A stretch of DNA of 22,207 bases, taken from a virus. This document shows, one piece after another, positions 1,594 to 21,862 of the stretch; within the stretch, counting starts at the first letter, position 1, and each line of letters begins with the position of its first letter. The notes beneath the pieces are model-generated. The model made no database searches. It saw nothing but the letters and a program-made list of their open reading frames with translations, and was not told the origin of the DNA. The stretch is from IMG/VR virus record IMGVR_UViG_3300035157_000148, positions 1 through 22,207 of that record, one strand, 5' to 3'. Position numbers and translations under genes: made by a program.

Positions 1594-2997
1594 ATGAGCA
1601 ACGAACAATTAGCTGAAATACTTGCTGAACTCGCTTTAGACCCTGTAATGTTTGTCGAAACAATGTTAGATGTCAAACCTGAACAATGGCAGCGTGAGTT
1701 TTTGCGTAATGTCATGGACAATCCCAGATGTGCAGTTAAATCAGGTCATGGAGTCGGTAAAACAGCAGTATTGTCGTGGCTTATCTTGTGGTGGTTACTC
1801 ACTCGTCACCCATGTAAAGTGGTATGTACTGCCAACACCGCACATCAATTATCAGATGTGCTATGGGCAGAAGTGAAAAAATGGGGTCGTAGGCTGCCAG
1901 AAGCATTTTATCAGCAGCTTGAAATGAAATCGGATAAAATTAATTTAGAAGGTGCTAGTGATAGTTACGCTGTGGCTCGTGTGAGTCGTAGAGAAAATCC
2001 AGAAGCGTTACAAGGATTCCACTCTGATAACCTTTTATTTATTATAGATGAAGCCTCTGGTGTAGATGATATGATATTTGAGGTTGGTGAGGGTTCGCTT
2101 TCAACACCTAATGCGAAAGTTGTGATGACTGGTAATCCAACACGAACTAGTGGCTATTTCTTTAATGCCTTTTCCGCAATGCGTGATAGATGGACATTGA
2201 TGACAGTTGCTTGTAAGGACAGTTCGCAAGTTGCACCTGAATATATTGAAGATATGGGAATAAAATATGGTGATGACTCGAATGTGTATCGAGTGCGTGT
2301 TTTAGGCGAGTTCCCTCGTGCAGAAGATGATACAGTTATTCCGCTATATATGGTGGATAGTTCTTTAAATAGAGATGTGCAAGTTGACCCCTATACTCCT
2401 GTAGTTTGGGGTTTAGATGTCGCCAATTTCGGTAGTGATAGGACAGCCCTATGTAAAAGGCGTGGCAATGAAGTCGTAGAGCCAATAAAGACATGGCAAG
2501 GCAAAGATTTAATGGAAACTGTTGGAATGATAGTCCAAGAGTATGAAATGTGTAAATATAAAGATAGACCAACAGATATTATGGTAGATACCATAGGTAT
2601 TGGGTCTGGTGTGTGTTCACGATTGACAGAACTTGACCTTCCTGCCAGACCTATACAAGTTAGTGAAAGTCCTAGTATGCGTGAAAAATATATGCGTTTG
2701 CGTGACGAATTATGGTTTAGGGCGAGAGAATGGTTTGAAGGGCGTGATGTGTATTTAGTGCAAGATGACAAACTCATAGAAGAACTTATTGCACCTCGTT
2801 TTAAAATTACAAGTGCTGGAAAAATAAAAGTTGAAGCCAAAGATGAATTTAAGAAAAGATTAGGTGGTCGTTCTTGTGACCTAGCTGATGCTTTTTGCCT
2901 AACTTTTGCACAACAAGCATTTACTGCCTCTGTTCGTGGCACACAGCATAATTGGAATAAACCAATATCATATAAGGATAACTCATGGATAACATAG
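1594..2997 (+). CDS. terL: Terminase large subunit (packaging ATPase/nuclease)
   Basis: This is the packaging motor that translocates DNA into the prohead through the portal and cuts it. At 467 residues it has normal length. The ATPase domain has Walker A GHGVGKT (51-57), Walker B LLFIIDEA (147-154, with D152 and E153) and the coupling motif VVMTGNPT (176-183). The C-terminal RNase H-like nuclease domain has the acidic set D275 in GLDVANFGSD, D332 in MVDTIGIGSG, and D429/D432 in SCDLADAF. All key residues are present, so it should be active. AAGGA lies 5 bases before the ATG. Its last 13 bases overlap the next gene. It follows a probable small terminase and precedes the portal, the standard packaging order. 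Confidence 0.97.
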   Translation: MSNEQLAEILAELALDPVMFVETMLDVKPEQWQREFLRNVMDNPRCAVKSGHGVGKTAVLSWLILWWLLTRHPCKVVCTANTAHQLSDVLWAEVKKWGRRLPEAFYQQLEMKSDKINLEGASDSYAVARVSRRENPEALQGFHSDNLLFIIDEASGVDDMIFEVGEGSLSTPNAKVVMTGNPTRTSGYFFNAFSAMRDRWTLMTVACKDSSQVAPEYIEDMGIKYGDDSNVYRVRVLGEFPRAEDDTVIPLYMVDSSLNRDVQVDPYTPVVWGLDVANFGSDRTALCKRRGNEVVEPIKTWQGKDLMETVGMIVQEYEMCKYKDRPTDIMVDTIGIGSGVCSRLTELDLPARPIQVSESPSMREKYMRLRDELWFRAREWFEGRDVYLVQDDKLIEELIAPRFKITSAGKIKVEAKDEFKKRLGGRSCDLADAFCLTFAQQAFTASVRGTQHNWNKPISYKDNSWIT

Positions 2998-3251
2998 ATG
3001 ACATCATATTTGAACTAGATGAAGAAGTTAAAGAGGTAATCGCAGATAACCCTGTGACAGACGCTTTGCTAAGCCATCTGTGTTTAGAATTAGAGTCAAT
3101 GAACAAACCAATAGATAACTGGAAATTATTAACAGATATAACTTTAGCTGCTTCTGCATTTTGTTTTTACAAAAGCGGTGGTAGTTCTGACGAGTTTTTA
3201 GAAAAAATACAATCTATTGATATACGACCAGATATGAGCAAATTAAACTAG
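2985..3251 (+). CDS. Small acidic hypothetical protein (88 aa)
   Basis: The start lies 13 bases inside the end of the large terminase gene, suggesting translational coupling. The N-terminus is acidic (MDNIDDIIFELDEEVKEVI). A moderately hydrophobic helix follows near the middle (LLTDITLAASAFCFY), too mixed to be a confident membrane segment. No family is recognised. Its place between terminase and portal is typical for small accessory genes of this phage type. The gene is supported by its length, the coupling and the following gene, whose ribosome binding site overlaps its stop (TAGGAG at 3249-3254). Confidence 0.7.
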   Translation: MDNIDDIIFELDEEVKEVIADNPVTDALLSHLCLELESMNKPIDNWKLLTDITLAASAFCFYKSGGSSDEFLEKIQSIDIRPDMSKLN

Positions 3252-3481: not shown

Positions 3482-5491
3482 ATGGAAGAACTAGAGTTTC
3501 AGGCTTTAGTGCGTAATGAGATTGAAAACGCATTAGGGTTTTATGATAGCGAGTATGGTATAGACCGCATACAAGCAATGGATTACTACATGGGTGAAAA
3601 GTTCGGCAACGAACAAGAAGGGCGCTCCCAAGTTGTAACGACAGAAGTTGCCGATACCATTGAGTTTATCATGCCAAGCCTTATGCGTACATTTACACAA
3701 ACTGACAATTATGTTGAGTTTATGCCTCGACAAGAAGAAGATGTTGAGGGCGCAAAACAAGCCACATCATACGCTAATTATGTCATTAACTGTCAAAATG
3801 ATGGTTTTGTCATTATGCACAATTTCTTTAAAGACGCTTTATTGCAAAAAATTGGCGTTGTTAAAGTCTATTATGATGAAACCGAAAATGTCGAAGAAGA
3901 AACTTATACTGGTTTATCTGATGATGAACTAACCTTATTGCTGCAAGATGAAAATGTAGAAATTGTTGAGCAAAACACCGAAGAATATGGTGAAGAAGGT
4001 GTTGACGAAATGGGTATGCCTTTATCGGATTATAGTGTTAGCCATGATGTCAAAATTAAACGCACTATGTATGGTGGCATGATTAAGGTTGACAACATAC
4101 CGCCAGAAGAATTTTTAGTGAACAGACGAGCTGCGTCAATAGATGAAGCTGATTTTGTAGCACATAGAACAACAATGAAAGTGTCTGATTTGTTACAAAT
4201 GGGTTATGACCGAGATTTAGTTGAAAAACACGCTGGTCATGCTGAATTAGATACAAACCAAGAAGTGCAAAATCGTTTTGAAGATGTAGAGTCTGGTTCT
4301 GATACTGACAGCTCTGATATGTCAATGCGTGATGTTTTAGTCACAGAAGCCTATATTAAAGCAGATTATGATGGTGATGGCATTGCCGAGCTACGCAGAG
4401 TTGTTACATTAGGGTCTGGTTTTGAAATTGTTGAAAACGATACATTTGACCATGTACCTTTTGCGTGTTTATCACCAATATTAATGCCGCATAGGTTAAT
4501 TGGTCGTAGTTTAGCAGAATTAATCATGGATATACAGATGATTAAATCAACTGTTATGCGTCAATTATTAGATAATATTTATCTTACAAACAATGTAAGA
4601 GTTGCTGCTGTTGAAGGGCAAGTCAACATTGATGATTTATTAAATTCACGAGCAGGTGGTATTGTGCGTGTGCGTCAAGCTAATGCACTACAACCAATAC
4701 AGCCACAACTTATCGGTCAAAACGCATTTAGCTTGTTACAATATCTTGACGATTTAAAAGAACAAAGAACAGGATTGTCAAAAGCGTCTATGGGATTAGA
4801 TGCCGATTCCTTGCAAAGCACGACAGCTACAGCAGTTGCAGCACAAATGTCTGCAGCACAAGGTAAAATAGAAATGATAGCACGAGTATTTGCTGAAACT
4901 GGAGTTAAACAACTGTTTCAACTTATCTTAACGCTTTGCTTACATCATGGCAAAAAAGACCAAATGATACGACTTAACAATAAGTTTGTGCCGATTGACC
5001 CTAGCAACTGGAAACATGAATACGATATATCAGTTAATGTTGGATTAGGTTCTGGTCAAACAAACGAGAAAATGGCGTTTTTGGCTCAAATGGCACAAAA
5101 ACAAGAACAAATATTATTGCAAACTGGCGTTGATAACCCATTAGTTAGTATGCAGCAATATCGTAATACACTTGCCGAACTTGCTGGAATGGCTGGTTAT
5201 AAAGATGCGTCACGCTTCTTTAAAAATCCAGAAGATGCACCGCCACAACCACAACAACCGCCACCCCCTAGTGAAGCAGAATTAAAAATGCAATTTGAAC
5301 AACAAAAATTCCAAGCAGAATTAGAATTGCAAAAACAAAAACAAGAAGCGGAATTAGCATTGAAACGAGAAGAATTGCAAATGAAAATGCAAATACGACA
5401 AGAAGAATTACGCTATGAAGCACAGTTACGAGGTTTTGAACAACAAATGGGCGGTGACCCCTCTACAAATTTACCAAGAGTAGTTGAATAA
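3482..5491 (+). CDS. Portal protein, P22-like
   Basis: This is the dodecameric vertex ring through which DNA enters and leaves the capsid. At 669 residues it falls in the P22-type portal range. The N-terminal segment (MDYYMGEKFGNEQEGRSQVV, then ADTIEFIMPSLMRTF) is characteristic of that family. A Ca-binding-like loop DYDGDGIAEL starts at residue 295. The C-terminus has a Pro/Gln run (about 585-596) and then a long charged Gln/Glu/Lys coiled coil (about 597-655), matching the barrel or stalk region of such portals. The ribosome binding site is weak (AGG at 3472-3474). The stop overlaps the next start by one base (TAATG). It sits between the terminase and the scaffold/capsid genes, as expected. 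Confidence 0.93.
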   Translation: MEELEFQALVRNEIENALGFYDSEYGIDRIQAMDYYMGEKFGNEQEGRSQVVTTEVADTIEFIMPSLMRTFTQTDNYVEFMPRQEEDVEGAKQATSYANYVINCQNDGFVIMHNFFKDALLQKIGVVKVYYDETENVEEETYTGLSDDELTLLLQDENVEIVEQNTEEYGEEGVDEMGMPLSDYSVSHDVKIKRTMYGGMIKVDNIPPEEFLVNRRAASIDEADFVAHRTTMKVSDLLQMGYDRDLVEKHAGHAELDTNQEVQNRFEDVESGSDTDSSDMSMRDVLVTEAYIKADYDGDGIAELRRVVTLGSGFEIVENDTFDHVPFACLSPILMPHRLIGRSLAELIMDIQMIKSTVMRQLLDNIYLTNNVRVAAVEGQVNIDDLLNSRAGGIVRVRQANALQPIQPQLIGQNAFSLLQYLDDLKEQRTGLSKASMGLDADSLQSTTATAVAAQMSAAQGKIEMIARVFAETGVKQLFQLILTLCLHHGKKDQMIRLNNKFVPIDPSNWKHEYDISVNVGLGSGQTNEKMAFLAQMAQKQEQILLQTGVDNPLVSMQQYRNTLAELAGMAGYKDASRFFKNPEDAPPQPQQPPPPSEAELKMQFEQQKFQAELELQKQKQEAELALKREELQMKMQIRQEELRYEAQLRGFEQQMGGDPSTNLPRVVE

Positions 5492-7944
5492 TGATAGATG
5501 AAACATTAGACGCTATAACTGCATTATATAACACATACCCAACAACAAAGAATGTAAATTATTCAGCGTTTATGCGTGATTTTCAACCTGTGGAAAGTTA
5601 TCCAAATTACTTTGTGCCACAACAAGGTTTATTACAAAATACACCTACATTAGACACATTGTCAGATTTGGATATTATGCAGCAAAGACCACAATCTTTG
5701 TTAAATATGCTTGATTTATACCCAACGCTTGAAAATGATTTTCAACGCAGTTTTGCTGTAAATCCTGATACATATAATATGAATGTATATCAGCCATTAC
5801 CTTATGACGAAAATTATTGGAAAAGTAAGGTTGGCGGTACAGGTGGCACAGGAAGTAGCGGTCTTGATTTAAGTGGATTACCAGCAATAGCTAGTGCAAT
5901 TTCTTTACTTTCAGGTGGTGATGATGATGGTGATGATGATGATGGTGGTGATGGTGGTGATGGTAGTGATGGTTCAAGCGGAACTGATGTTATAACCACT
6001 AATACAACATTAACAGATACCTCAGGAACACAAACAGGTGAGGGCGGAGATATTGAAAGTAGCTCTAGTGATGTTGTTAAGATTACAATAACAGATGATG
6101 ACGATAGCTCTCAAAGCACAGGTCAAGGCGGAGATGTTGAAAGTGGTGGTAGTGATGTTTTAAAAGTCACAACAACAGATAGTAGTGATTCACAATCCCA
6201 AACAGGTGAGGGCGGAGATGTTGCTAGTAACACATCAAATGTTCTTAGTGCAACAAGTGTAGATTCATCAGAGTCTAGCGCAACAAGCGGAGATGTTGAA
6301 AGCGGAAGTAGTGATGTTACTAAAGTTTCTAATTTTGATATAAACGACACCTCAACTTGGGTGTGGGGTGGTTCGCCATTTAAGATAAATGTACATACAA
6401 GTGATGGAAAAGTTAAAGTTATTGATATAGAATCAAAAGAACAATTAGAAGCTTTAGTAGACCAACAAAACAGATGGAATCAAAGTGGTTTTAAAGGTAG
6501 TGTATTTCAATCAGATGCTATAGGTTTTACATTACCAAACAATGTAGTTAATACTGGGAGTGGCTTAAATTTTACAACTGAATTTGGAGTTGATAAGACT
6601 GGTTTAACTGGAACTGGAAAAACATGGGCTGGTGTTAATGATACAGCAGAAGATATTTTAATCAATACATCTAGAGATTTAATTACCACTTCAAAAGGAG
6701 GATTAGCACAATTTACTAATGTTGGAGTTGGCGGCAATCCTGATATGTGGGCTTATGATACAGCTAACAATACATGGCTTTCAAAAGCTGAATATGATTT
6801 GATAGCAGACCCTTTAAAAGCAAATTTACAAGAGGGTAATGCAATAGCGGAAACCTTAAGTTCAGCTTATGATGATGGCGGCAATATTTTTAGTGATGCT
6901 GCTCAAGGTGTGTCTAATTTTTTAAATAAAGAAATAATAGCTGGAACAGGTGGTGAGGGGTATTTAGGGCAATTAACAAATGTAAAAGTTGGTGAAGCGT
7001 TATCAGGTGTAGGTATGTTAATGTCTTTAAAAAGTGCTATTGATGACGCAAATGTCAGTAATGTTGTTGGAACTGCAGCAGGTGCTGCAGGATTAGGTTT
7101 ATTTGGTGCAAACGCACAAGCATTAGCAACCCCATTAGGTGCTGTTGCATTAATAGCAGGTTTAGGTGGACTTGGACAGCCTGACCCACCAAATATGACT
7201 GGTTTTGGTGGAACTGATTTAGCAAGTGGTGAAAGTGTTAGCTTTGGTATGCAAGGCGATAAATTTAACGAAGATAATGTTAATAATGCAGGAAATGTTG
7301 CTAATGTAATGGGTGGCGTTGTAAATAATATTACAAGTGCATTTGGTTTAAGTGCAGAGGGTGACATACTAGCACAAACAGGAAATCGTGACCCACTTAA
7401 TATAACTTTTGGCGACCAAGAATCTACACAAACATTAAACGATAGATTAAATTATAGTACAGAAACTGGCGACATTACAAATTCTAATGATGATATTACA
7501 AGATTATATTATACAGGTCGTGATGGTAATGATGGTGCAACTTTAGCTGATAATTTAGTTAAAGGCACAGCCTTATTATCGTTAAAAGCTCTTGCTAATG
7601 GTGAAGATAGTATAAATATCGCAGACATTACATTACCAGCAAGGTCTGCAGATGATGTTAAAAACACTTACTTATCACAAGGCTTTGATGAAACCGCAGC
7701 AGATGCCTTAACAAGTGCAGCTCGTAGTGCAAGTGGAGCAACTTCTGAATTATTAGGTGGATTATTGTTAGCCAATACAACTAATGAAGCTAATTATCTA
7801 ACTAATACTGAAAGAACAAGTTTATTAGAACAAGGATTTACAGACGAACAGCTAGACACAATATTATATGGTACAACAGAAGAAAGCATAACTGCTGTAA
7901 ATTTATTAAACACTAATGAGGAAAATAACGAAGAAAACATATAG
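5491..7944 (+). CDS. Large virion-type protein with Asp/Gly tract and repeats (817 aa)
   Basis: I do not recognise a family. The N-terminal 125 residues are rich in Pro, Tyr and Asn. They are followed by an Asp/Gly run (about 141-165; GGDDDGDDDDGG) and four imperfect 27-28-residue repeats (182 to about 290) of the form TGxGGDVESxxSDVxKVTxTD. A globular part follows, then a hydrophobic Ala/Gly segment (about 524-563; VVGTAAGAAGLGLFG and ALIAGLGGLG), and a Thr/Asn-rich acidic C-terminus. The start overlaps the portal stop (TAATG), so it is made with the portal. Acidic Gly/Asp repeats may bind Ca, and the Ala/Gly segment resembles the membrane-active parts of ejected virion proteins. A minor capsid or internal protein is my best inference. 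Confidence 0.75.
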   Translation: MIDETLDAITALYNTYPTTKNVNYSAFMRDFQPVESYPNYFVPQQGLLQNTPTLDTLSDLDIMQQRPQSLLNMLDLYPTLENDFQRSFAVNPDTYNMNVYQPLPYDENYWKSKVGGTGGTGSSGLDLSGLPAIASAISLLSGGDDDGDDDDGGDGGDGSDGSSGTDVITTNTTLTDTSGTQTGEGGDIESSSSDVVKITITDDDDSSQSTGQGGDVESGGSDVLKVTTTDSSDSQSQTGEGGDVASNTSNVLSATSVDSSESSATSGDVESGSSDVTKVSNFDINDTSTWVWGGSPFKINVHTSDGKVKVIDIESKEQLEALVDQQNRWNQSGFKGSVFQSDAIGFTLPNNVVNTGSGLNFTTEFGVDKTGLTGTGKTWAGVNDTAEDILINTSRDLITTSKGGLAQFTNVGVGGNPDMWAYDTANNTWLSKAEYDLIADPLKANLQEGNAIAETLSSAYDDGGNIFSDAAQGVSNFLNKEIIAGTGGEGYLGQLTNVKVGEALSGVGMLMSLKSAIDDANVSNVVGTAAGAAGLGLFGANAQALATPLGAVALIAGLGGLGQPDPPNMTGFGGTDLASGESVSFGMQGDKFNEDNVNNAGNVANVMGGVVNNITSAFGLSAEGDILAQTGNRDPLNITFGDQESTQTLNDRLNYSTETGDITNSNDDITRLYYTGRDGNDGATLADNLVKGTALLSLKALANGEDSINIADITLPARSADDVKNTYLSQGFDETAADALTSAARSASGATSELLGGLLLANTTNEANYLTNTERTSLLEQGFTDEQLDTILYGTTEESITAVNLLNTNEENNEENI
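6034..6345 (+). repeat. Four imperfect 81-84-bp coding repeats
   Basis: Units begin at 6034, 6118, 6202 and 6283, with periods of 84, 84 and 81 bases. Each starts with a motif like ACAGGTGAGGGCGGAGATGT (the last is shortened). They encode repeated TGEGGDVES...SDV units. Period and reading frame are conserved, so selection acts on the protein. Confidence 0.85.
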
Positions 7945-7952
7945 AGGAAAAA

Positions 7953-8213
7953 ATGGTAAAAATAGAGAATTTAGAAAAAGATAAAGCTCGTGCCGAACAA
8001 GCACAAGCATTATTACGAAACGAAATATTACAAGAGGCTTTTACATATTTAGAGGAACAATACCATATTGCATGGGCTAATAGTTCACTAGACCAAAAAG
8101 ACCCTCGTGAAAAAGTTTTTATGATGTTGACAACGCTTAAAGCTGTTAAGCAACACATAGAAAATGTCGTTACTGATGGTAAATTAGCTGACGACACCTT
8201 AAACCAACTATGA
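7953..8213 (+). CDS. Small helical conserved phage protein (86 aa)
   Basis: This all-helical 86-residue protein (KIENLEKDKARAEQAQALLR, then LQEAFTYLEEQYHIAWANS, KVFMMLTTLKAVKQHIENVV, DGKL) is of a kind commonly found just before the scaffold in phages with this head cassette. The pattern of an N-terminal charged helix, an AW dipeptide, a DPREK turn and a final VVxDGKL is familiar, but I know of no proven function. GAGGA upstream gives a good ribosome binding site. It lies 8 bases after the previous gene. It may act in head assembly together with the scaffold; this is inferred from position only. Confidence 0.75.
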   Translation: MVKIENLEKDKARAEQAQALLRNEILQEAFTYLEEQYHIAWANSSLDQKDPREKVFMMLTTLKAVKQHIENVVTDGKLADDTLNQL

Positions 8214-13022: not shown

Positions 13023-13380
13023 AGAAGCGTGGTTAAAATCACGCAAATACATACTAGAAGCATTAGAACAAGGCATAGATAGCCATAGTGAAAAAGATGT
13101 ATTTTATGCAATAGCAAGGGGTGATGCTCAATTATGGACAGGGCAAAAATCTGCTTGTGTAACAGAAATAGTCACATACCCTAACTTTAAAATGATACGA
13201 TTTTGGTTAGGTGGTGGTAATTTAGAAGAATTAAAGGAAATGGAAAAACCAATCTGTGAATGGGCTAAATCCATTGGTTGTAAAAAATCAATGATACTAG
13301 GTCGTAAAGGTTGGTCAAAAATTAAACACGAAGATAGAACCTACAAAGATGTAGGCACAATTTCAATAAGGAGTATATAA
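13000..13380 (+). CDS. GNAT-like phage protein
   Basis: The 126-residue product (MNTSSLDKEAWLKSRKYILE...) has the pattern DVFYAIARGDAQLWTGQKSA, then VTEIVTYPNFKMIRFWLGGG, then MEKPICEWAKSIGCKKSMIL and GRKGWSK. This alternation of strands, a Gly-rich loop and helices resembles the reduced GNAT (acetyltransferase) fold of small proteins found next to neck genes in many phages. The acetyl-CoA loop is not a clear Q/RxxGxG/A, so activity is uncertain. I chose the ATG at 13000, a 23-base overlap with the upstream gene, over an in-frame GTG at 12982 that has no ribosome binding site. Its stop overlaps the next start (TAATG). Confidence 0.65.
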   Translation: MNTSSLDKEAWLKSRKYILEALEQGIDSHSEKDVFYAIARGDAQLWTGQKSACVTEIVTYPNFKMIRFWLGGGNLEELKEMEKPICEWAKSIGCKKSMILGRKGWSKIKHEDRTYKDVGTISIRSI

Positions 13381-14123
13381 TGAGTTTAGGCGGAAGCGAA
13401 CAAACAGGAGTACAGACAACAACTGTGCTGCCACCTGCGTATGTGTTACCACAATTAGCGTATGGTGCAAATGAAGCTCAAAGAATGTATAGTGCAGGTA
13501 CTGGTTTTGGCTATTATCCTGAAAATACAGTAGCAGGATTTAGTCCAGAACAACAAATGGCTATGACGCTGCAAGGTAATCGTGCCTTATCTGGTAGTCC
13601 TATAACACGAGAAGGTCAGTCATTAGGTTTAAACACTTTGCGTGGTGATTTTTTAGGAAGCAATCCTTATTTTAAACAAGCTGTATTAGACCCAATTACA
13701 GACCAAGTGCAAGGTCAATTTAGTCGTGCAGGGCGTTTAGGTTCTGGTGCAAATCAAAATGCTTTAACTCGTGCATTGTCAACACCATTAATGCAAAACT
13801 ATGAAAACGAAAGACAAAGGCAAAGCAATATGTTATCTAATGTACCTGCCCTTGCTAACCAAGATTATACTGATTATGCACAATTAGCAGCAGTTGGATT
13901 GGACAGACAACAACAAGCACAAAGACAAATTGAAGCTAATAAAGCTCGTTTTGATTTCTTACAATCTGCACCACAACAAAGACTAGGTACTTTCTTAGGA
14001 AACTTAAACGCTGCAGCAGGAAATGCACAAACAACAAACCAACCTTTATATGAAAATACAAATGCTAATGCTTTAGCAAATACAGCTACTTTACTTAGCA
14101 TTATTAAAAGTTTGAGGGGTTAA
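13380..14123 (+). CDS. Putative internal/ejection protein (247 aa)
   Basis: The N-terminus (GGSEQTGVQTTTVLPPAYVL, then YGANEAQRMYSAGTGFGYYP and ENTVAGFSPEQQMAM) and the middle (SRAGRLGSGANQNALTRAL) match a pattern common in internal or minor tail proteins of short-tailed phages: a Gly/Thr/Gln-rich lead, YYPxNTVAxFSPxQ, and GRxGSG. The rest is helical and rich in Gln, Ala and Asn (NERQRQSNMLSNVPALANQD, VGLDRQQQAQRQIEANKARF), which would suit a protein that unfolds during ejection. Its position just after the neck genes matches the ejection genes of P22-like phages. It starts on a TAATG overlap. Confidence 0.65.
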   Translation: MSLGGSEQTGVQTTTVLPPAYVLPQLAYGANEAQRMYSAGTGFGYYPENTVAGFSPEQQMAMTLQGNRALSGSPITREGQSLGLNTLRGDFLGSNPYFKQAVLDPITDQVQGQFSRAGRLGSGANQNALTRALSTPLMQNYENERQRQSNMLSNVPALANQDYTDYAQLAAVGLDRQQQAQRQIEANKARFDFLQSAPQQRLGTFLGNLNAAAGNAQTTNQPLYENTNANALANTATLLSIIKSLRG

Positions 14124-14125
14124 AT

Positions 14126-15688
14126 ATGACTTTGTTAAACAATGCTGTTAATAATAATGAAGAAGAAAAAGGTTTAAGTGGTTTATTAGGTAGATTAGAT
14201 AGTCAAGGTTTATTAGCTTTCGCTGCTGCTTTACAAGAACAAGCTGCTCCCTCTACAACGCCACAAGGCGATTTAAGATTAGCTGCACCTATGTTGGCTT
14301 ACAAACAAGCAAATGAACAACAAAAACAAAAACAGGCTTTAAATCAATTATTTGAAGCTAGAGGCATACCTACTGATTTACCAACTGATGTTGCATTAAA
14401 ATTATTAAACAATAACAAACAAACAAAACCAAACTTTCAAACATTTCAAAATACATCATCTCAGCCAATAAATATAGGTGGGCGAATTATTGAACCTAAT
14501 GCTACTTTTAATATAGATTCAAATACATTTTATGACCCACAAAATCAAGCTATAGCTAATGCTTATAGTCGAGGATTAATAACGCCATTTACACCAAAAA
14601 ATAAAAATCAACAAGTATCTTTTAAGAATTTTACAAATACTAGCGGTGACGACATTACATTATCAAATGGTATAGTCATTAAATCTGGAGAATCTACAGC
14701 ATTAAATGTTTCTGATGTTTTTGCCAACCCAAATAGAGGAGTTACAAAAGAATTAATTAATAAAGGAATTTTAAGAGAAAGCGGTAAAATAGATATAAAA
14801 GATAAATCATATATTAATAACACAACAAAACTTATAAAATTAGCAAATGGTACAGAGCTAGGCGTTGGGCAAACAATAACATTAGATAGTAATTCACAAA
14901 TTCAAAACAATAAACTTATAGATAATAATAAATTAGCATTTTATGAAGGTGGTAGAGCTACAAATAAAACAATACTGCAAGACCCAGAAACAGGTAATAG
15001 GTATGAACAATATAATGTTGATGGTAAAGAATTTATAAGAGATTTAAAACAAGGTCAAAGGTTGCCATTAGAAATATTTAGAAAACTATACCCAGATTTA
15101 CTTCCAAAATTAAAATCTATTACTACAACTGAAATTGCGGAAAGAAGTGTAAAAAGACCAAAATTATTAGATATGTCGCAAGACATAGTAACAGACTATG
15201 TTTCATTACAAGCATTAACACGATATGGTGCTAGTGTTGACAAGGCTGGACAAGGTATTAATTTTGCTGTTGATTCATTGTTAAGAAATATTAACACTAT
15301 ACTTGATGCCGAAGATTTAACCGAAGAAGAACTTGCTGCTGGTTTAGCGACAGGTCAGCAAGAAGGTTTACTTGGTAAATATCGACTTGAAGTTGTAGGT
15401 GGTGGTGTAATGACAGAACAAGATGCTATGAGGGTTATTAAAGCTCTAGGTCGAAGGGGTGCTTTAAGAAACAAAAAAGAAATTAAAGTATTGTTAACGC
15501 AAATGTTTAAAGATAAATACGCTAAATATGCAAGACAAGTGCAGTTTTTTAACACAGCAATTAGTGACCAACAAGATGACGCTTTTTTACCTTTCCCTGT
15601 ATATGAATCCTATGAAGAAATGTTAAAAGAATTAACAGAAAATGCAGAAAAAGAACAGTTTAGCGAAACTGAAAGTGATTTTGATTAA
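14126..15688 (+). CDS. Internal-virion-type protein with a threefold repeat (520 aa)
   Basis: No family is recognised with certainty. Residues 1-80 are Ala/Gln-rich and helical. Residues 107-276 carry three related copies with an exact 62-residue spacing (starting at 107, 169 and 231), each of the form NTS...I-x-L-x-NG-x-x-I-x-x-G-x-x-x-x-L, likely small beta domains. The C-terminal half is helical (VTDYVSLQALTRYGASVDKA, then NINTILDAEDLTEEELAAGL) and ends in an acidic tail. The ribosome binding site GAGGGG is inside the end of the upstream gene. Size and position between two putative ejection proteins suggest a third one, or a tail-associated protein. Confidence 0.65.
   Translation: MTLLNNAVNNNEEEKGLSGLLGRLDSQGLLAFAAALQEQAAPSTTPQGDLRLAAPMLAYKQANEQQKQKQALNQLFEARGIPTDLPTDVALKLLNNNKQTKPNFQTFQNTSSQPINIGGRIIEPNATFNIDSNTFYDPQNQAIANAYSRGLITPFTPKNKNQQVSFKNFTNTSGDDITLSNGIVIKSGESTALNVSDVFANPNRGVTKELINKGILRESGKIDIKDKSYINNTTKLIKLANGTELGVGQTITLDSNSQIQNNKLIDNNKLAFYEGGRATNKTILQDPETGNRYEQYNVDGKEFIRDLKQGQRLPLEIFRKLYPDLLPKLKSITTTEIAERSVKRPKLLDMSQDIVTDYVSLQALTRYGASVDKAGQGINFAVDSLLRNINTILDAEDLTEEELAAGLATGQQEGLLGKYRLEVVGGGVMTEQDAMRVIKALGRRGALRNKKEIKVLLTQMFKDKYAKYARQVQFFNTAISDQQDDAFLPFPVYESYEEMLKELTENAEKEQFSETESDFD
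14444..14953 (+). repeat. Three protein-level repeats, 62-residue period
   Basis: Copies begin at 14444, 14630 and 14816 (186 bases apart). They align as FQNTSSQPINIGGRIIEPN, FTNTSGDDITLSNGIVIKSG and NNTTKLIKLANGTELGVG. The first two also share a following DxFxxPN-type stretch and a GLI/GIL end. DNA identity is low, so duplication is old or the repeat is maintained for structure. Confidence 0.7.
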
Positions 15689-15697
15689 GGACATAAT

Positions 15698-17518
15698 ATG
15701 GCAAAAAGACATTTAATACACACAAAAACTAGAAAGAAAATAACAATTTATGTGCCTAAATCACATGAAGATAAATTTGGTAAATTGCAAGATAAAGTAA
15801 AAGGTTACAGCTCACAAATAGAAAAAGAATTTTTAGAAAATTTAGTAAAAAACCCAAAAAATATGCCAAAAGGATATTATGTTTCAAAAGGTAACTTAGA
15901 TGATTTTGGAAAAGCATTAAAAAAATTACCAAGTTCTAGTTTAAAATTATTAACAGATTATGCAAATATAGTTATACACCCAATAGATACAGCAACAAAT
16001 GTTTTTAAATTAGGAAAAGGTGTTTTAGAACTTGCTGTTCCAGATTATATATATAAATCTGATGACCAAGATATGGCAATAGCTATTGGTAATTATTTTA
16101 AAGATAAATATGGTTCTATGGCAGGTTTTAGAAAAGCTGCAACATCAGACCCTGCTGGTATATTAGCAGATGTTAGTATGGTTTTTTCTGGTGGTGCTAC
16201 TGTTCTTGGTAAAATACCTCAACTAGCAGGACAAGCAGAAAAAATTAATAAATTTGCAAGAATTTCAAATAGATTTGACCCTGTAATTGGAACTGGTTGG
16301 GGTTTAAAAGAAAGTGGAAAAGGTGTTATGAATTATTTACCAGATATAGCTGCTTTACCCTCTGGTGTTGGGGGTGATGTTCTTAGGTTAGGTTATCAAG
16401 CTGGTCGTGAAGGTGGTGAAAAGCAAAGAGCATTTACCGATAATATGAGAGGAAAAAATCCTAATGCTGCTGAAGATTTAGCAAAACAAATAAGAGAAAG
16501 ATTAAATCAGCATAAACTAGCAAAACAAGAAAAATATAGTAATGATATGGGTCAATTATTATTAGGAAATAAAGTTATACCACAAAAAGATTTTAACAAA
16601 ATAATAGACAACATTATAAAAAATATAGACAATAAAACAACATTTAAGGGTAGGAATATAGATAAAACTATTGAAGTGCCAAGTCATTTACCTGTAAAAC
16701 CTGAAATAAGAAAAGTTAATGAAAAAGGAATTAATACAGTACAAAATGAAAAGGGTGCTGCAGCAGTAAATGAAATTAAGGAAATATTAACTACATTTAA
16801 AGAAAATCCTAATTTTCATACAGCAGAGGGTTTAGATGTTTTAAAAGGCATGATTGATGATTTATACCCTACTACAGCAAATAGCGAATTACCAAATTTA
16901 GTTCAAAATATAATTACTGAAACAAGAAATAATATTAAAAGCAAAATTATTGAAATTGAACCAAATTATGCAGATGTTATGGAAGCGTATGAAGTTGCGC
17001 ATAGACTAGAACAAGAATTATTAAAAGGATACGCTTTAGGTAATAAATCAACTATTGATACAATTTCAAGAAAATTATTTCAAGCTTTAAGAAACAACAA
17101 AAGTACAAATTACAATTCAAGATTAAACACATTAAAACAATTTGATAATCTTGGTGATTTACAAGCTGCAATAGCAGGTCTTGTTGCACAAAGCCCAATA
17201 CCTGTTGGGGGTTCTGGTTTAGTTTATAGTAGCCTTGCTGCAGGTGGAGCAATAGGTGCTGGCGCATCAGGTGGAACATTAGCAGCTTTACTAGCTTTAT
17301 CAAGTCCAAGAGTAGCAGGTGAAGCAAGTAATTTAGCAGGTAGAATTGCTGGTACTGTTAATCAAATGTCACCACCACCACAAGTAACAGGTTTATTAGA
17401 CGCAATACCAGATAGTATAACACAAGCTGCGTCTAATACAGCAGGGGTTTTAAAAAAACCTTTAACAGATATAACTCTATTGGAAGCTAGAGCAATAGAT
17501 GAAGAAGAAAATTATTAG
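15698..17518 (+). CDS. Putative ejected/membrane-active internal virion protein (606 aa)
   Basis: The N-terminus is basic (MAKRHLIHTKTRKKITIYVP). A conserved-looking block follows at about 150-180 (DPAGILADVSMVFSGGATVL), a pattern I know from large internal proteins of many podoviruses. The middle is helical and charged (about 240-470). Near the C-terminus is a glycine-zipper-like segment (about 508-538; AAGGAIGAGASGGTLAALLA), well suited to membrane insertion. A Pro patch and an acidic tail follow. Together with the two preceding genes it makes a three-gene set like P22 gp7, gp20 and gp16, which leave the virion and breach the envelope during infection. The function is inferred from composition and position. 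AAGGA is 6 bases before the ATG, and the stop lies inside the next ribosome binding site. Confidence 0.7.
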   Translation: MAKRHLIHTKTRKKITIYVPKSHEDKFGKLQDKVKGYSSQIEKEFLENLVKNPKNMPKGYYVSKGNLDDFGKALKKLPSSSLKLLTDYANIVIHPIDTATNVFKLGKGVLELAVPDYIYKSDDQDMAIAIGNYFKDKYGSMAGFRKAATSDPAGILADVSMVFSGGATVLGKIPQLAGQAEKINKFARISNRFDPVIGTGWGLKESGKGVMNYLPDIAALPSGVGGDVLRLGYQAGREGGEKQRAFTDNMRGKNPNAAEDLAKQIRERLNQHKLAKQEKYSNDMGQLLLGNKVIPQKDFNKIIDNIIKNIDNKTTFKGRNIDKTIEVPSHLPVKPEIRKVNEKGINTVQNEKGAAAVNEIKEILTTFKENPNFHTAEGLDVLKGMIDDLYPTTANSELPNLVQNIITETRNNIKSKIIEIEPNYADVMEAYEVAHRLEQELLKGYALGNKSTIDTISRKLFQALRNNKSTNYNSRLNTLKQFDNLGDLQAAIAGLVAQSPIPVGGSGLVYSSLAAGGAIGAGASGGTLAALLALSSPRVAGEASNLAGRIAGTVNQMSPPPQVTGLLDAIPDSITQAASNTAGVLKKPLTDITLLEARAIDEEENY

Positions 17519-17527
17519 GAGTAACAC

Positions 17528-20500
17528 ATGGCAAAAACGAAAATATCACAGTTTGATGCAAACGCAGCAAATAATACTGACTTAAATAGTATTAGTATTG
17601 CTGAGGGAACAGCACCATCAAACATAAATAACGCTATAAGAGAATTAATGTCGCAACTTGCTGACCTTAATCTTGGTAACGAAGTACTATCTACACTTAA
17701 AATAGATAATTTGCATTTAGATGGAAACACCATAGTTACGCTTGATACAAATGGCGACCTAAACCTTACTCCTAATGGTACAGGGTCAGTCACGATAGCT
17801 AAAGCAGACATTAATGGTGGTGCTATTGATGGCACACCTATTGGTGCTTCTAGTGCAAGTACAGGTGCATTTTCTACATTATCTGCAAGTTCAACTGCTA
17901 ATCTAGGTTCAACAGTAACAATAAGTGGTGGAAATATAGATGGGGTTATAGGTGCTAATACACCTGCGGCAATAACTGGTACTGTGATTACCGCCAATAC
18001 AAATTTTGCAGGAGATATTACAGGTAATGTTACTGGAAATGTCACAGGCAACCTAACTGGAAATGTCACAGGGAATGTAACTGGAAATGTGACTGGAGAT
18101 GTAACTGGAAATATTACAGCTTCCACAGGTTCATCTACATTCAACAATGTAACTATCAATGGCACATTGGATATGGATTCAACCACTACACAAACTATTA
18201 CAGGTCTTGCCACGCCATCAGGTAGTTCAGATGCAGCAACTAAAGGGTATGTTGATACCGAAGTATCAGCATTGGTTGACTCTGCTCCATCAACATTAAA
18301 TACATTAAATGAATTAGCTGCAGCATTAGGTGATGACGCTAATTACGCAACAACAACAACTAACGCTATCGCTGCCAAGCTACCTCTTGCTGGTGGCACT
18401 ATGACAGGGAACATAAACCTTGATTCAAATAGTTTAACAAACTTAGCTGCTCCATCAGGTGCAAATGACGCTGCAAGAAAAGCCTATGTAGATACTGCTG
18501 ACGCACTAAAACTTAATTTAAGTGGTGGTACAATGTCAGGTGACATTAATGCAGATAGCAATAAAGTTACAAATCTTGCTACGCCAACAAACACAGGTGA
18601 CGCAACAAGTAAATCTTATGTTGATGGTATATTAGGTTCGGCAACCTCTGCGGCTACATCAGCTTCTAACGCAGCAACTTCGGCTACAAACGCTGCAAAT
18701 TCAGCAACCTCTGCTTCAACCCAAGCTAGTAACGCAGCTACAAGTGCTGCTGCTGCCGCTACATCTTATGACAATTTTGATGATAGATATTTAGGTGCAA
18801 AATCATCAGCACCTACTGTTGATAATGATGGTGACGCTTTAATTGAGGGTGCATTATATTTTAATACAACATCAAATGAGTTATTTGTTAGAAATTCATC
18901 AAACGCATGGACACAAGCTGCCTTTACAGCAAGTGGATTTTTAAGTGGTAGTAATAACCTATCAGATGTTGATAGTGCATCAACAGCAAGAACAAATTTA
19001 GGATTAGCTATTGGTACAAATGTACAAGCCCATGACGCTGATTTAGATGCCCTTGCAGGACTAACATCTGCTGCCGACAAAGGTATTCAATTTACAGGTA
19101 GTGGAACTGCAGGTACATACGATTTAACAAGTGCAGGTAAAGCCCTACTAGATGACGCAGATGCTGCAGCCCAAAGAACAACATTAGGATTAGGAACTGC
19201 CGCTACAACAGCTTCTTCTGATTATGCTACAGCAGCACAAGGAACGAAAGCTGATGATGCAGCAGCAAAAGCATCAAACTTGTCAGATTTAGCAAGTGCA
19301 AGCACAGCTAGAACTAATTTAGGACTAGGCAGCGTTGCAACATTGACCGCAGGTACATCAGCAAATAATGCTGTTCAATTAGATAGTAACGCCAAACTAC
19401 CAGCAGTAGATGGTTCACAACTTACAGGAATATCAGGTGGAACTGACCAAATTGATATGGTCGTTGCAACAGGTTCAGATGCTATATCTGTTGGTGATGT
19501 TATTACAAGAGAAAGTAGTGGTGAAACTAAAAAGGTTAAAAAAACTTCCACGACAACAAACTATTCTGTCGGAGCTATTGACCACCTAGAAACTAACATA
19601 GGTAATGCTGGGTGGCATACTAGCTCATACAGTCCTCATGGTCATACCCAGCTTTTTGAAGTATGCGGATCGCATGATGGAAGATTTGTAGTTTTCTGGG
19701 GTTCTGGGTGGCCGAGTTACACTTATTATGCCATTGCTTGGGTACATAATGGAAGTGGTAGTTGGACTATCGGAAGCAGTAGGACATCTACAAGCGATAG
19801 TCATAATGGCGGTCAAGTAGCTGTTCCAACATTAAGATTTTCTAAGAGCTTAAACACAAGTGCTGGTGGAACATGGATAGCCTTTTATCAAGATAATGGC
19901 AGATATACTAGAACAATGTTTTTTACTGTTGATAGCGGTACAGGGCATCAAGTATATAAATATGGTGAGAGTGGCTCTACATCATCTTTCTACAGTAAAG
20001 GTCAAGCTGCTTCTGGAAGCGGAACAACAGTCAATGAAGGCAACACAATAAGACAAGTATCAAGTGAAAGAGTGGACATCTTATCTCTTGGAAATACATA
20101 TAACAAAACTTATGTTGGCTCATGGAAAGTAGAATATAATGGTTCACAATACACTTGTTCTACAATAGGTGGAGTCCAGACTAACGATTCAGCTTATTCA
20201 AACTCTGGCTATGGAAGCAGTTATTACAGTCGATTTGCTTTATGTGGTTATGACCATAAGAACGATAGACTTATTGGCTGTGTTGTAGATAGCAATAGAC
20301 GACTTACTTTTGTAAAAGCAAAACCAGCAGGAAATGCTCTTGATTGGACTTTTGAATGGGCTTCTAATGCTTGGAGTGCATCAAACTTAAACGATAATGG
20401 TACGATTGATCAGGGATATGAATATGGGGATTATGTGATGCAAGATGGCTATGGACAAGCCTTCCTAAGTTCAAGAAACTATCGAGCTGGGCAATCACAA

Positions 20501-21862
20501 ATATATTATTCTCTAGTCGCAGTAGATGGAGCTATGACAAGCTACAATGCGTCAGGTGTTTCTAATATTATACATACTAGCAGACAAAGTGATTACAATT
20601 ATATTGGCGGCCCGCCTATGAAGTGGGATATCCTAAATAGAAAGTTATTAGTTTGGGGTACAGGATATAATCATTCAGATAGCTTACAGAGCTGGGTTCA
20701 TCTTAACAACTCAATGAGAGTAATCAGTATGTCTGAAAGCGGTGGTTACCATGTAACCCACAGTACCGATTCAACAGTATCAACAGGAAGTAGTTATGAT
20801 GGTAGCTCTGGTTCTGAGTTTACTCGTTTTAGAATGTGGGGATTTGTTGATGGTGTAAGTATTACATCTTTGACTGATGCAAAAGCTGGAAGATACCTTA
20901 TGTTTAAGAGCAGTAATGCTACAGGAACAGGAACTATAAAGTGGGCATCAGGAACAATTCCACATTCTGTAACGACATCAACTACAAATAAATCAGATGC
21001 TTTTGGATTTGCACAAAAAGCTGGTACTGCTGGAGATACAATTTCAGTATTACCATTTGATAGTGAAAGTATTGAACAAAACCAATCATCTTTAACACAT
21101 GGTACAAAATATTATGTAAGCTCAACAGGAGCATTGTCTACAGCTACAACTCCAGATGCGGATATTGCAAATGACCCTGATAATCCTCTTGTTGGACAAG
21201 CTATTAATACTACTTTTTTACGATTGCCCTCAAAAAGCATTTCTGGTGGTGGAATAGCTTCATCAGACACTTCCAAGATATTTTGTGGAGCTGTTGATTT
21301 AAAAAATGACACAGGAGTGCAGTCTAATTTTACATTATCAAAACCATCAGGCATTAACGCAGAAGATATTAGGGCATATATAATTGAATATTATGGAATT
21401 ATGACAAGTACAGGTACAGGTGATTATTATGTCTTGCAAATGAAACCTTACAATAGTGGTAGTTCTGTTATGAACAGTACCTTTTATGGTGGGGGTTTTT
21501 ATTATGGGGGTGGCACAGATGGCTCATATAATACAAACATGAGTACCTACTTAAACATAGCTTATCAAGGTGGTGAATCACTACAAGGAGCATCAAGCTC
21601 AACAAGAGCTTCAAATGCTATTATGTACAGTCCATCATGGTCTGGTGTTTGTTTATATGAAAACAACATAAACCAAGCTTCTATAGATTATTGGTCTATC
21701 ATGCGGTATGGAACTAACAATAATCAGATAAGAAAAGAATGGTACACAGGCGGAGCAAACAACAATCAGACAACATCTAATTATGCTGATTCATTTTATT
21801 TTGAGCCACGAACAGGCACATGGTCAGAGGGTGTTGTTAGTTTATACGCAATTACTAAATAG
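17528..21862 (+). CDS. Tail fibre / receptor-binding protein (1,444 aa)
   Basis: The N-terminus (KTKISQFDANAANNTDLNSI, then NINNAIRELMSQLADL) is a typical virion-anchor start. A shaft follows with nine GNVT-type tetrapeptides (about 162-197) and three T-x-LAxP...DAAxKxYVDT repeats (about 224-367). Then come an Ala/Ser/Thr coiled coil (about 371-414), a YDNFDDRYLGAKSSAPTVDN block and LSDxxSASTARTNLGLG repeats to about 640. A Trp/Tyr/Gly-rich beta region (about 650-1130) probably binds the receptor and looks propeller-like. Near 1165-1243 is a GTAGDTISV...LTHGTKYYVSSTG module seen in marine phage fibres, then a Gly/Tyr/Asn-rich C-terminal domain. TAGGAG overlaps the upstream stop. A dedicated chaperone follows. 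Confidence 0.88.
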   Translation: MAKTKISQFDANAANNTDLNSISIAEGTAPSNINNAIRELMSQLADLNLGNEVLSTLKIDNLHLDGNTIVTLDTNGDLNLTPNGTGSVTIAKADINGGAIDGTPIGASSASTGAFSTLSASSTANLGSTVTISGGNIDGVIGANTPAAITGTVITANTNFAGDITGNVTGNVTGNLTGNVTGNVTGNVTGDVTGNITASTGSSTFNNVTINGTLDMDSTTTQTITGLATPSGSSDAATKGYVDTEVSALVDSAPSTLNTLNELAAALGDDANYATTTTNAIAAKLPLAGGTMTGNINLDSNSLTNLAAPSGANDAARKAYVDTADALKLNLSGGTMSGDINADSNKVTNLATPTNTGDATSKSYVDGILGSATSAATSASNAATSATNAANSATSASTQASNAATSAAAAATSYDNFDDRYLGAKSSAPTVDNDGDALIEGALYFNTTSNELFVRNSSNAWTQAAFTASGFLSGSNNLSDVDSASTARTNLGLAIGTNVQAHDADLDALAGLTSAADKGIQFTGSGTAGTYDLTSAGKALLDDADAAAQRTTLGLGTAATTASSDYATAAQGTKADDAAAKASNLSDLASASTARTNLGLGSVATLTAGTSANNAVQLDSNAKLPAVDGSQLTGISGGTDQIDMVVATGSDAISVGDVITRESSGETKKVKKTSTTTNYSVGAIDHLETNIGNAGWHTSSYSPHGHTQLFEVCGSHDGRFVVFWGSGWPSYTYYAIAWVHNGSGSWTIGSSRTSTSDSHNGGQVAVPTLRFSKSLNTSAGGTWIAFYQDNGRYTRTMFFTVDSGTGHQVYKYGESGSTSSFYSKGQAASGSGTTVNEGNTIRQVSSERVDILSLGNTYNKTYVGSWKVEYNGSQYTCSTIGGVQTNDSAYSNSGYGSSYYSRFALCGYDHKNDRLIGCVVDSNRRLTFVKAKPAGNALDWTFEWASNAWSASNLNDNGTIDQGYEYGDYVMQDGYGQAFLSSRNYRAGQSQIYYSLVAVDGAMTSYNASGVSNIIHTSRQSDYNYIGGPPMKWDILNRKLLVWGTGYNHSDSLQSWVHLNNSMRVISMSESGGYHVTHSTDSTVSTGSSYDGSSGSEFTRFRMWGFVDGVSITSLTDAKAGRYLMFKSSNATGTGTIKWASGTIPHSVTTSTTNKSDAFGFAQKAGTAGDTISVLPFDSESIEQNQSSLTHGTKYYVSSTGALSTATTPDADIANDPDNPLVGQAINTTFLRLPSKSISGGGIASSDTSKIFCGAVDLKNDTGVQSNFTLSKPSGINAEDIRAYIIEYYGIMTSTGTGDYYVLQMKPYNSGSSVMNSTFYGGGFYYGGGTDGSYNTNMSTYLNIAYQGGESLQGASSSTRASNAIMYSPSWSGVCLYENNINQASIDYWSIMRYGTNNNQIRKEWYTGGANNNQTTSNYADSFYFEPRTGTWSEGVVSLYAITK
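18011..18118 (+). repeat. Nine 12-bp GNVT coding repeats in the fibre shaft
   Basis: Nine tandem 12-base units encode G-N/D-V/I/L-T. Base differences between units are largely synonymous (GGA/GGT/GGC/GGG, ACT/ACA, GTT/GTC/GTA/GTG), so protein sequence is conserved while DNA identity is broken up. Confidence 0.92.

Follow-up and report, generated by a model that had tools for sequence, protein, structure and literature searches.

Portal-adjacent minor head proteins that bind the portal and carry variable payloads are known from the MuF superfamily and SPP1 gp7, and include the MuF polymorphic toxins (PMC5576092). For another class of virion protein, the ejection proteins gp20-24 of SU10, the criterion was presence in virions and loss after genome release (PMC9509320). 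Here we analyse a viral DNA of 22,207 nucleotides (IMG/VR record IMGVR_UViG_3300035157_000148, positions 1 to 22,207), called the window below, in which a gene for an 817-aa protein directly follows an SU10-type portal gene. We use GAP as a working name for this portal-slot protein gene (5491-7944), and L-numbers (L005, L054, L074 and so on) as labels of the loci or contigs of relatives compared with the window. A previous sequence-only reading of the window had thought an ejected protein encoded beside the portal unusual; the position has precedent in the minor head proteins of PMC5576092, and it is the mobile module and the hypervariability of GAP that are out of the ordinary.

The GAP gene and its neighbours

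The gene is real, a single open frame of 817 codons (Table 1). At the 3' end of the portal gene (GAATAATG), which closes with GAA-TAA, the final A of the stop codon also opens the ATG of GAP (TAATG), so that translational coupling is plausible; the earlier statement that GAP is coupled to the portal thus stands as to the overlap, while the coupling itself would be a plausible reading of these letters. Profile matches assign the neighbouring scaffold to PHROG 3927 and the SU10-type capsid protein to PF17236. Near GAP also lies p247, which matches a 'DNA ejection protein' (PHROG 4287, 1.1e-8) and is followed by p520, p606 and a gene for a 1444-aa fibre-like protein. A small gene that separates the terminase gene from the portal gene, p88 (window 2985-3251), is rather variable too, with 37-97% identity where its neighbouring genes show 83-99%.

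GAP had been described as fitting no recognised family, and the profile search proposed at that time has now been run with the same outcome: no match to any known family was found in Pfam, PHROGs, NCBIfam, PDB sequences, BFVD or the phages collection, the two fold libraries searched included. A host search over genome contigs returned no close relative, only distant contigs, mostly from MAGs.

Table 1. Coordinates of GAP, its parts and the edges of the slot in the window
Feature	Position	Strand	Basis
Portal (SU10 type), upstream edge of the slot	3482..5491	+	PF23899, 1.2e-220
GAP, whole gene, 817-aa portal-slot protein	5491..7944	+	One open frame; 40 full-length homologues, 657-888 aa, in the same place
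Conserved N-terminal region, residues 1-115	5491..5835	+	108-116 aa in 40/40 relatives; invariant columns
Terminal 'slot module', residues ~38-104: P..VPQQG.LQ.TP.L ... YPTLE.DFQ.SFAV.PDT......P	5602..5802	+	Profile-profile comparison, reciprocal HMM
Hypervariable low-complexity linker, residues 116-470, rich in Gly/Thr/Asp/Ser/Asn	5836..6900	+	Low identity; low model confidence
Asp/Gly tract, residues 143-160	5917..5970	+	Sequence; repeat family D1
Four tandem units, residues 182-290, offsets 28, 28 and 25	6034..6360	+	Repeat family D2; 0/2000 shuffles
Uncharged Ala/Gly-rich segment, residues 520-564, helical at low confidence	7048..7182	+	Composition, hydropathy, model
C-terminal alpha/beta and helical domain, residues 568-810; types A and B	7192..7920	+	Separate model; alignment A2
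p86, small conserved gene, downstream edge of the slot	7953..8213	+	Identity between phages; follows the portal in three isolates

An optional slot between portal and p86

In IMG/VR we found 66 loci with a related portal, with identities of 80-100% over the matched part except for three short weak matches. Every close relative (portal identity at least 83%) with enough downstream sequence carries a GAP-family gene in the slot. In the isolates HTVC106P, Venkman EXVC282S and phiM5 the slot is empty, and the p86 counterpart lies directly 3' of the portal. Among 66 scorable divergent loci from IMG/VR or phages, whose portal identities are mostly 43-57%, a slot gene of at least 150 aa is absent in 42 and present in 24. 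GAP is therefore an accessory gene that occupies an optional slot between the portal and the p86/scaffold genes.

Several groups can be told apart among the slot proteins, with no resemblance to one another, and almost none of the proteins matches a known family; an enzyme is recognisable in a single slot payload, the GDSL/SGNH hydrolase of L158:4008-5444 (PF13472, 3.1e-16). Other short motifs recur among them. Slot proteins of a more distant portal clade (L129, L131, L133, L148 and L162) carry a second motif, YGA(G/A/S)R(F/Y), close to either terminus, which is perhaps another docking tag, and a third, LNSxFxxxNxLGGTQWxxL, is found at the C-terminus of those of L149, L155, L160 and L166. In the slot proteins of L115-L122, L126 and L132, a two-Cys motif (CPEGYxFDxDLQACR) stands ahead of the C-terminal module described below, and some of them have a common N-terminal motif, LAYIN..E..LL..GG.G. 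For the N-terminus of the L116 protein there is a weak match in Roseobacter phage CRP-901, to a LysM protein (E 0.08).

Conservation and exchange of GAP alleles

The 40 full-length GAP homologues, 657-888 aa when complete, all belong to one family and occupy the same genomic place. Their alignment shows a conserved N-terminal region, a very poorly conserved linker and a C-terminal region whose conservation lies between the two, and all 26 invariant columns fall within residues 17-104. Net charge lies between -62 and -87 in every full-length member. Cysteine is absent from all 41,211 residues of the family, a trait that is a hint at most, since p247, p606 and the scaffold are likewise Cys-free. 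The nearly identical GAP copy of L003:1-1591 has an apparent frameshift near residue ~550, due either to a sequencing error or to a broken gene.

We compared phages with a portal identity of 97% or more. In the 43 pairs available for GAP the median identity was 0.56 and 79% of pairs fell below 0.8, counts that do not represent independent events because some contigs are near-duplicates. The same comparison gave medians of 0.99-1.00 for the terminase, p86, scaffold, capsid and tail genes and 0.98 for p88, the identity of p86 ranging over 93-100%. Compared with the window, L005 and L006 keep 94-98% identity in the DNA that flanks GAP, while GAP itself has been swapped for another allele.

The ejection cassette p247/p520/p606 is variable too, with at least three types. 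L074 and L092 have portals 99% identical and the same cassette type, yet different GAP types (L092 has the divergent type B), and L074 and the window have most of GAP in common, with C-terminal domains 89% identical, while the cassette type differs. On these combinations we rejected co-exchange of GAP with the cassette: no co-segregation with p247/p520/p606 was found, and the alleles shuffle independently. The cassette itself (window 13380-17518; also L074, L075 and L077-L092) is modular, and some p520 and p606 types have no detectable similarity to those of the window. The p520/p606 part sits between p247 and the fibre gene, and the N-terminus of the fibre protein shows 79-98% identity wherever it could be read; the relatives' contigs showed just this N-terminal part of the 1444-aa fibre-like protein, which in the window (17528-21862) has a VTGNVTGN/LTGN-type repeat near residues 165-195.

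The linker and the C-terminal half

In most blocks of the linker the mean identity to the window protein is 9-35%, and pLDDT is mostly below 50. The Asp/Gly tract noted earlier is present at residues ~143-160. Of the four 28-residue repeats that had been claimed, the tandem array holds up, its period-28 score being reached by none of 2000 shuffles of that region, but the spacing shortens to 25 residues at the fourth unit; units 2-4 share 79, 68 and 60% nucleotide identity with the first. Comparison of the repeats among relatives, as the earlier reading had proposed, showed that both the length and the number of units vary between alleles: L062 has a stronger period-28 array, and the periods of other relatives are about 20-44. 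RTX calcium-binding repeats (PF00353) occur in the linker of 13 of the 45 aligned relatives (best E-value 7.5e-12; 35.4 bits in L054 against a cut-off of 23). The window protein has no PF00353 match, nor any Pfam match at E up to 1, and its Gly/Asp run and 28-residue units are recognised by no model. The suggested resemblance of the Gly/Asp repeats to calcium-binding linkers thus gains support from relatives, though not from the window's own copy. RTX repeats fold on calcium.

Residues 520-564 form a stretch of 45 residues without charge, about 50% of them Ala or Gly. This had been called hydrophobic and likened to membrane-active virion proteins. The composition is as described, but the hydropathy is not exceptional: a maximum as high as that of GAP (1.71, over 19 residues, at residue 544) turns up in 17% of whole-protein shuffles, and a peak of at least 1.3 at the segment is found in just 21 of 40 full-length relatives. 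What is conserved in this region is a Gly pattern (G508, G531 and G539) rather than hydrophobicity. The case for membrane activity is accordingly weak, and we rejected the idea of a membrane segment in GAP.

The C-terminal region occurs as two homologous types, A and B, within the family. Structure prediction, another check proposed with the first reading, succeeded for the C-terminal domain modelled alone (pLDDT 79, pTM 0.80) and not for the full-length protein, for which most of the AlphaFold model has low confidence (pLDDT 44) and the best PDB alignments are short helical fragments with Z under 4. The domain model gave nothing above noise against PDB and BFVD with Foldseek or with VIA-align, which does not imply a new fold, and no confident PDB or BFVD match to a fibre or tip fold. 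A kinship of this domain with the proteins of L099, L103 and L104, suspected by eye, was unsupported (hhalign E 0.03 over 21 columns).

A module shared between slot proteins

Side-by-side reading of the slot proteins first drew our eye to a recurring pattern, GLL..AP ... ANxxFxxSFAxRPxxY. It corresponds to a module that is N-terminal in L099, L101, L103 and L104 and C-terminal in the slot proteins of L102, L115-L122, L126, L132 and L070 and in that of phage C72C1. As these cases had been picked by eye, we tested them in four ways. An HMM built from GAP N-termini alone and run against 5,936 six-frame ORFs placed L104 (E 4e-5), L099 (5e-4), L103 (1.5e-3) and L101 (0.03) at the top, and one further iteration brought in the C-terminal class (L102, 8e-5; L126, 0.005). 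Profile-profile comparison gave E-values of 8.5e-10 for GAP against the L099 group, 5e-8 for the L099 group against the C-terminal group, and 2.6e-4, resting on 21 columns, for GAP against the C-terminal group directly. In 200 column shuffles per pair none reached the real matches, the best being 0.013-0.021. Reciprocally, an HMM of the C-terminal modules alone, searched against 3,415 ORFs of the window clade, recovered 84 GAP entries as its first 84 matches, with E-values of 0.0025 for the best GAP, 0.012 for the window and 2.3 for the first non-GAP ORF; against 12,888 other ORFs it also retrieved L099, L101, L103 and L104 (7e-7 to 0.01). Taken singly, GAP and the C72C1 protein gave a probability of 0.5%, the relation being seen only with group profiles. 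The module HMM also aligned in part with a p520-type protein (E 0.035), which we put down to chance.

For the C-terminal type only, we also scanned a DNA pattern over all of IMG/VR (2.9 million viral contigs). It occurred in 44 stretches, 43 of them in frame and 27-30 codons before a stop. All those with readable flanks lie directly upstream of p86/scaffold, and downstream of the portal where the contig extends that far; flanks were limited in L182, which is too short, and L215, which starts at the contig edge. Outside the module, the payloads of the three module-bearing classes have no mutual BLASTP match at 1e-3. These comparisons show a shared module at either terminus of otherwise unrelated slot proteins. 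Between the window and L005 the N-terminal module is only 52% identical although the portals are 99% identical, so that contact with a constant partner would be limited to invariant residues of the module, such as G46, F84, F88 and P92 in the numbering of the window protein.

What GAP may be

The tag is constant, its position and payload change, and it occurs only in portal-adjacent genes, which is most simply read as a docking signal for the product of a constant neighbour. We therefore read GAP, with about as much doubt as confidence, as a docked portal-slot cargo or minor virion protein that would work in a MuF-like way with the module as its docking tag. GAP is a rapidly exchanged accessory gene inserted between portal and p86/scaffold in a marine group of SU10-portal phages; its N-terminal module of ~65 residues would recruit it, while the procapsid is assembled, to a partner in the particle that stays constant, for which the portal vertex is the simplest choice, and the acidic Gly/Asp linker (RTX in relatives) with the C-terminal domain would be a payload carried by the virion, most likely delivered or exposed at infection. 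That the module docks, that the portal vertex is its partner and that GAP is in virions are points we infer; the partner is guessed from gene position, and p86, the scaffold or the capsid protein would fit too. An ejected virion protein, as first suggested, would be compatible with the sequence. The failure of GAP to co-segregate with the ejection cassette counts against the docked-cargo reading.

The main rival, in our view unlikely, is an outside-facing virion protein (a neck or head fibre, or an adhesin) anchored by the N-terminal module, with an RTX-like stalk stiffened by calcium and variation that tracks host surfaces. A conserved anchor, a repetitive stalk and fast exchange are indeed fibre-like, GAP is as variable as the ejection genes, and the RTX repeats of 13 of the 45 relatives would equally suit a protein that faces, and folds in, calcium-rich seawater. 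However, the linker is the most variable part and the C-terminal end is better conserved, the opposite of a receptor-binding tip; the C-terminal domain is modelled as mixed alpha/beta and helical without a fibre match, and a fibre-like gene distinct from GAP, for 1444 aa, lies behind the ejection cassette. We think it distinctly unlikely that GAP is non-structural and merely made together with the portal, as an assembly factor or an intracellular effector outside the virion. The confinement of the module to the slot argues for a link to the neighbouring morphogenesis products, and an acidic, Cys-free, largely disordered and RTX-bearing chain would be odd for a cytoplasmic effector, even though late operons can take up accessory genes and a slot that is optional is not needed for assembly in the group as a whole. 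Least probable of all is that GAP belongs with p247/p520/p606 as a classical ejection protein and has been displaced from their cassette: GAP is Cys-free like p247 and p606 and hypervariable like p520 and p606, but its alleles shuffle independently of the cassette in L074, L092 and the window, and it has no sequence match to the cassette proteins above noise.

Returning to docked cargo, the data suggest that these phages attach swappable cargo to the particle by means of the module tag. Calcium-driven pulling has been proposed for type I secreted RTX proteins. As RTX repeats fold on calcium, it is attractive but speculative that the payload is extended in passage and folds outside the cytoplasm: an RTX-bearing payload would be unfolded in low calcium, and its folding in the envelope would pull the chain out of the tail. 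Delivery into the envelope with calcium-dependent folding there is likewise speculative, and the full proposal, that SU10-portal phages share a cargo-tag system whose module loads payloads at the portal vertex and whose RTX payloads draw themselves from the tail as they fold, seems to us quite improbable as a whole.

If the module does dock virion cargo, it would serve as a portable targeting tag, short and MuF-independent, and would give first access to the non-DNA cargo of marine SU10-type phages. The module also provides a sequence signature for finding such genes in uncultured phages. Here a single head-operon gene is exchanged wholesale between phages with nearly identical neighbouring head genes, which marks the slot as a likely front of phage-host conflict.

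Comparison with known systems

A brief search of open PMC papers found no description of the slot or the module, so that their novelty is provisional. Like the MuF proteins and SPP1 gp7, GAP is encoded immediately downstream of the portal and joins a conserved part to a variable remainder. By contrast, its module is ~65 residues long and can lie at either terminus, and our searches of GAP turned up no toxin domain. Our test for the MuF domain, hmmscan of Pfam-A for PF04233 and PF06152 (the MuF3 and MuF4 profiles of PMC5576092 lie outside Pfam), was negative for the window protein, 45 family members and 32 other slot proteins, and GAP is therefore not filed as MuF, despite seeming to work like one.

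With RTX proteins the family shares PF00353 in 13 of 45 relatives, acidity and the lack of Cys, whereas the window allele has Gly/Asp-rich 28-residue units without PF00353 and the gene lies in a phage head operon. HTVC106P, Venkman EXVC282S and phiM5 have the same portal, scaffold and capsid families in the same gene order, but their p86 counterpart adjoins the portal without a slot gene. Phage C72C1 (OQ984150), the one annotated isolate in which we found the module, does fill the same slot, with the 362-aa hypothetical protein WJE88100.1, which bears the module at its C-terminus and is unlike GAP everywhere outside it.
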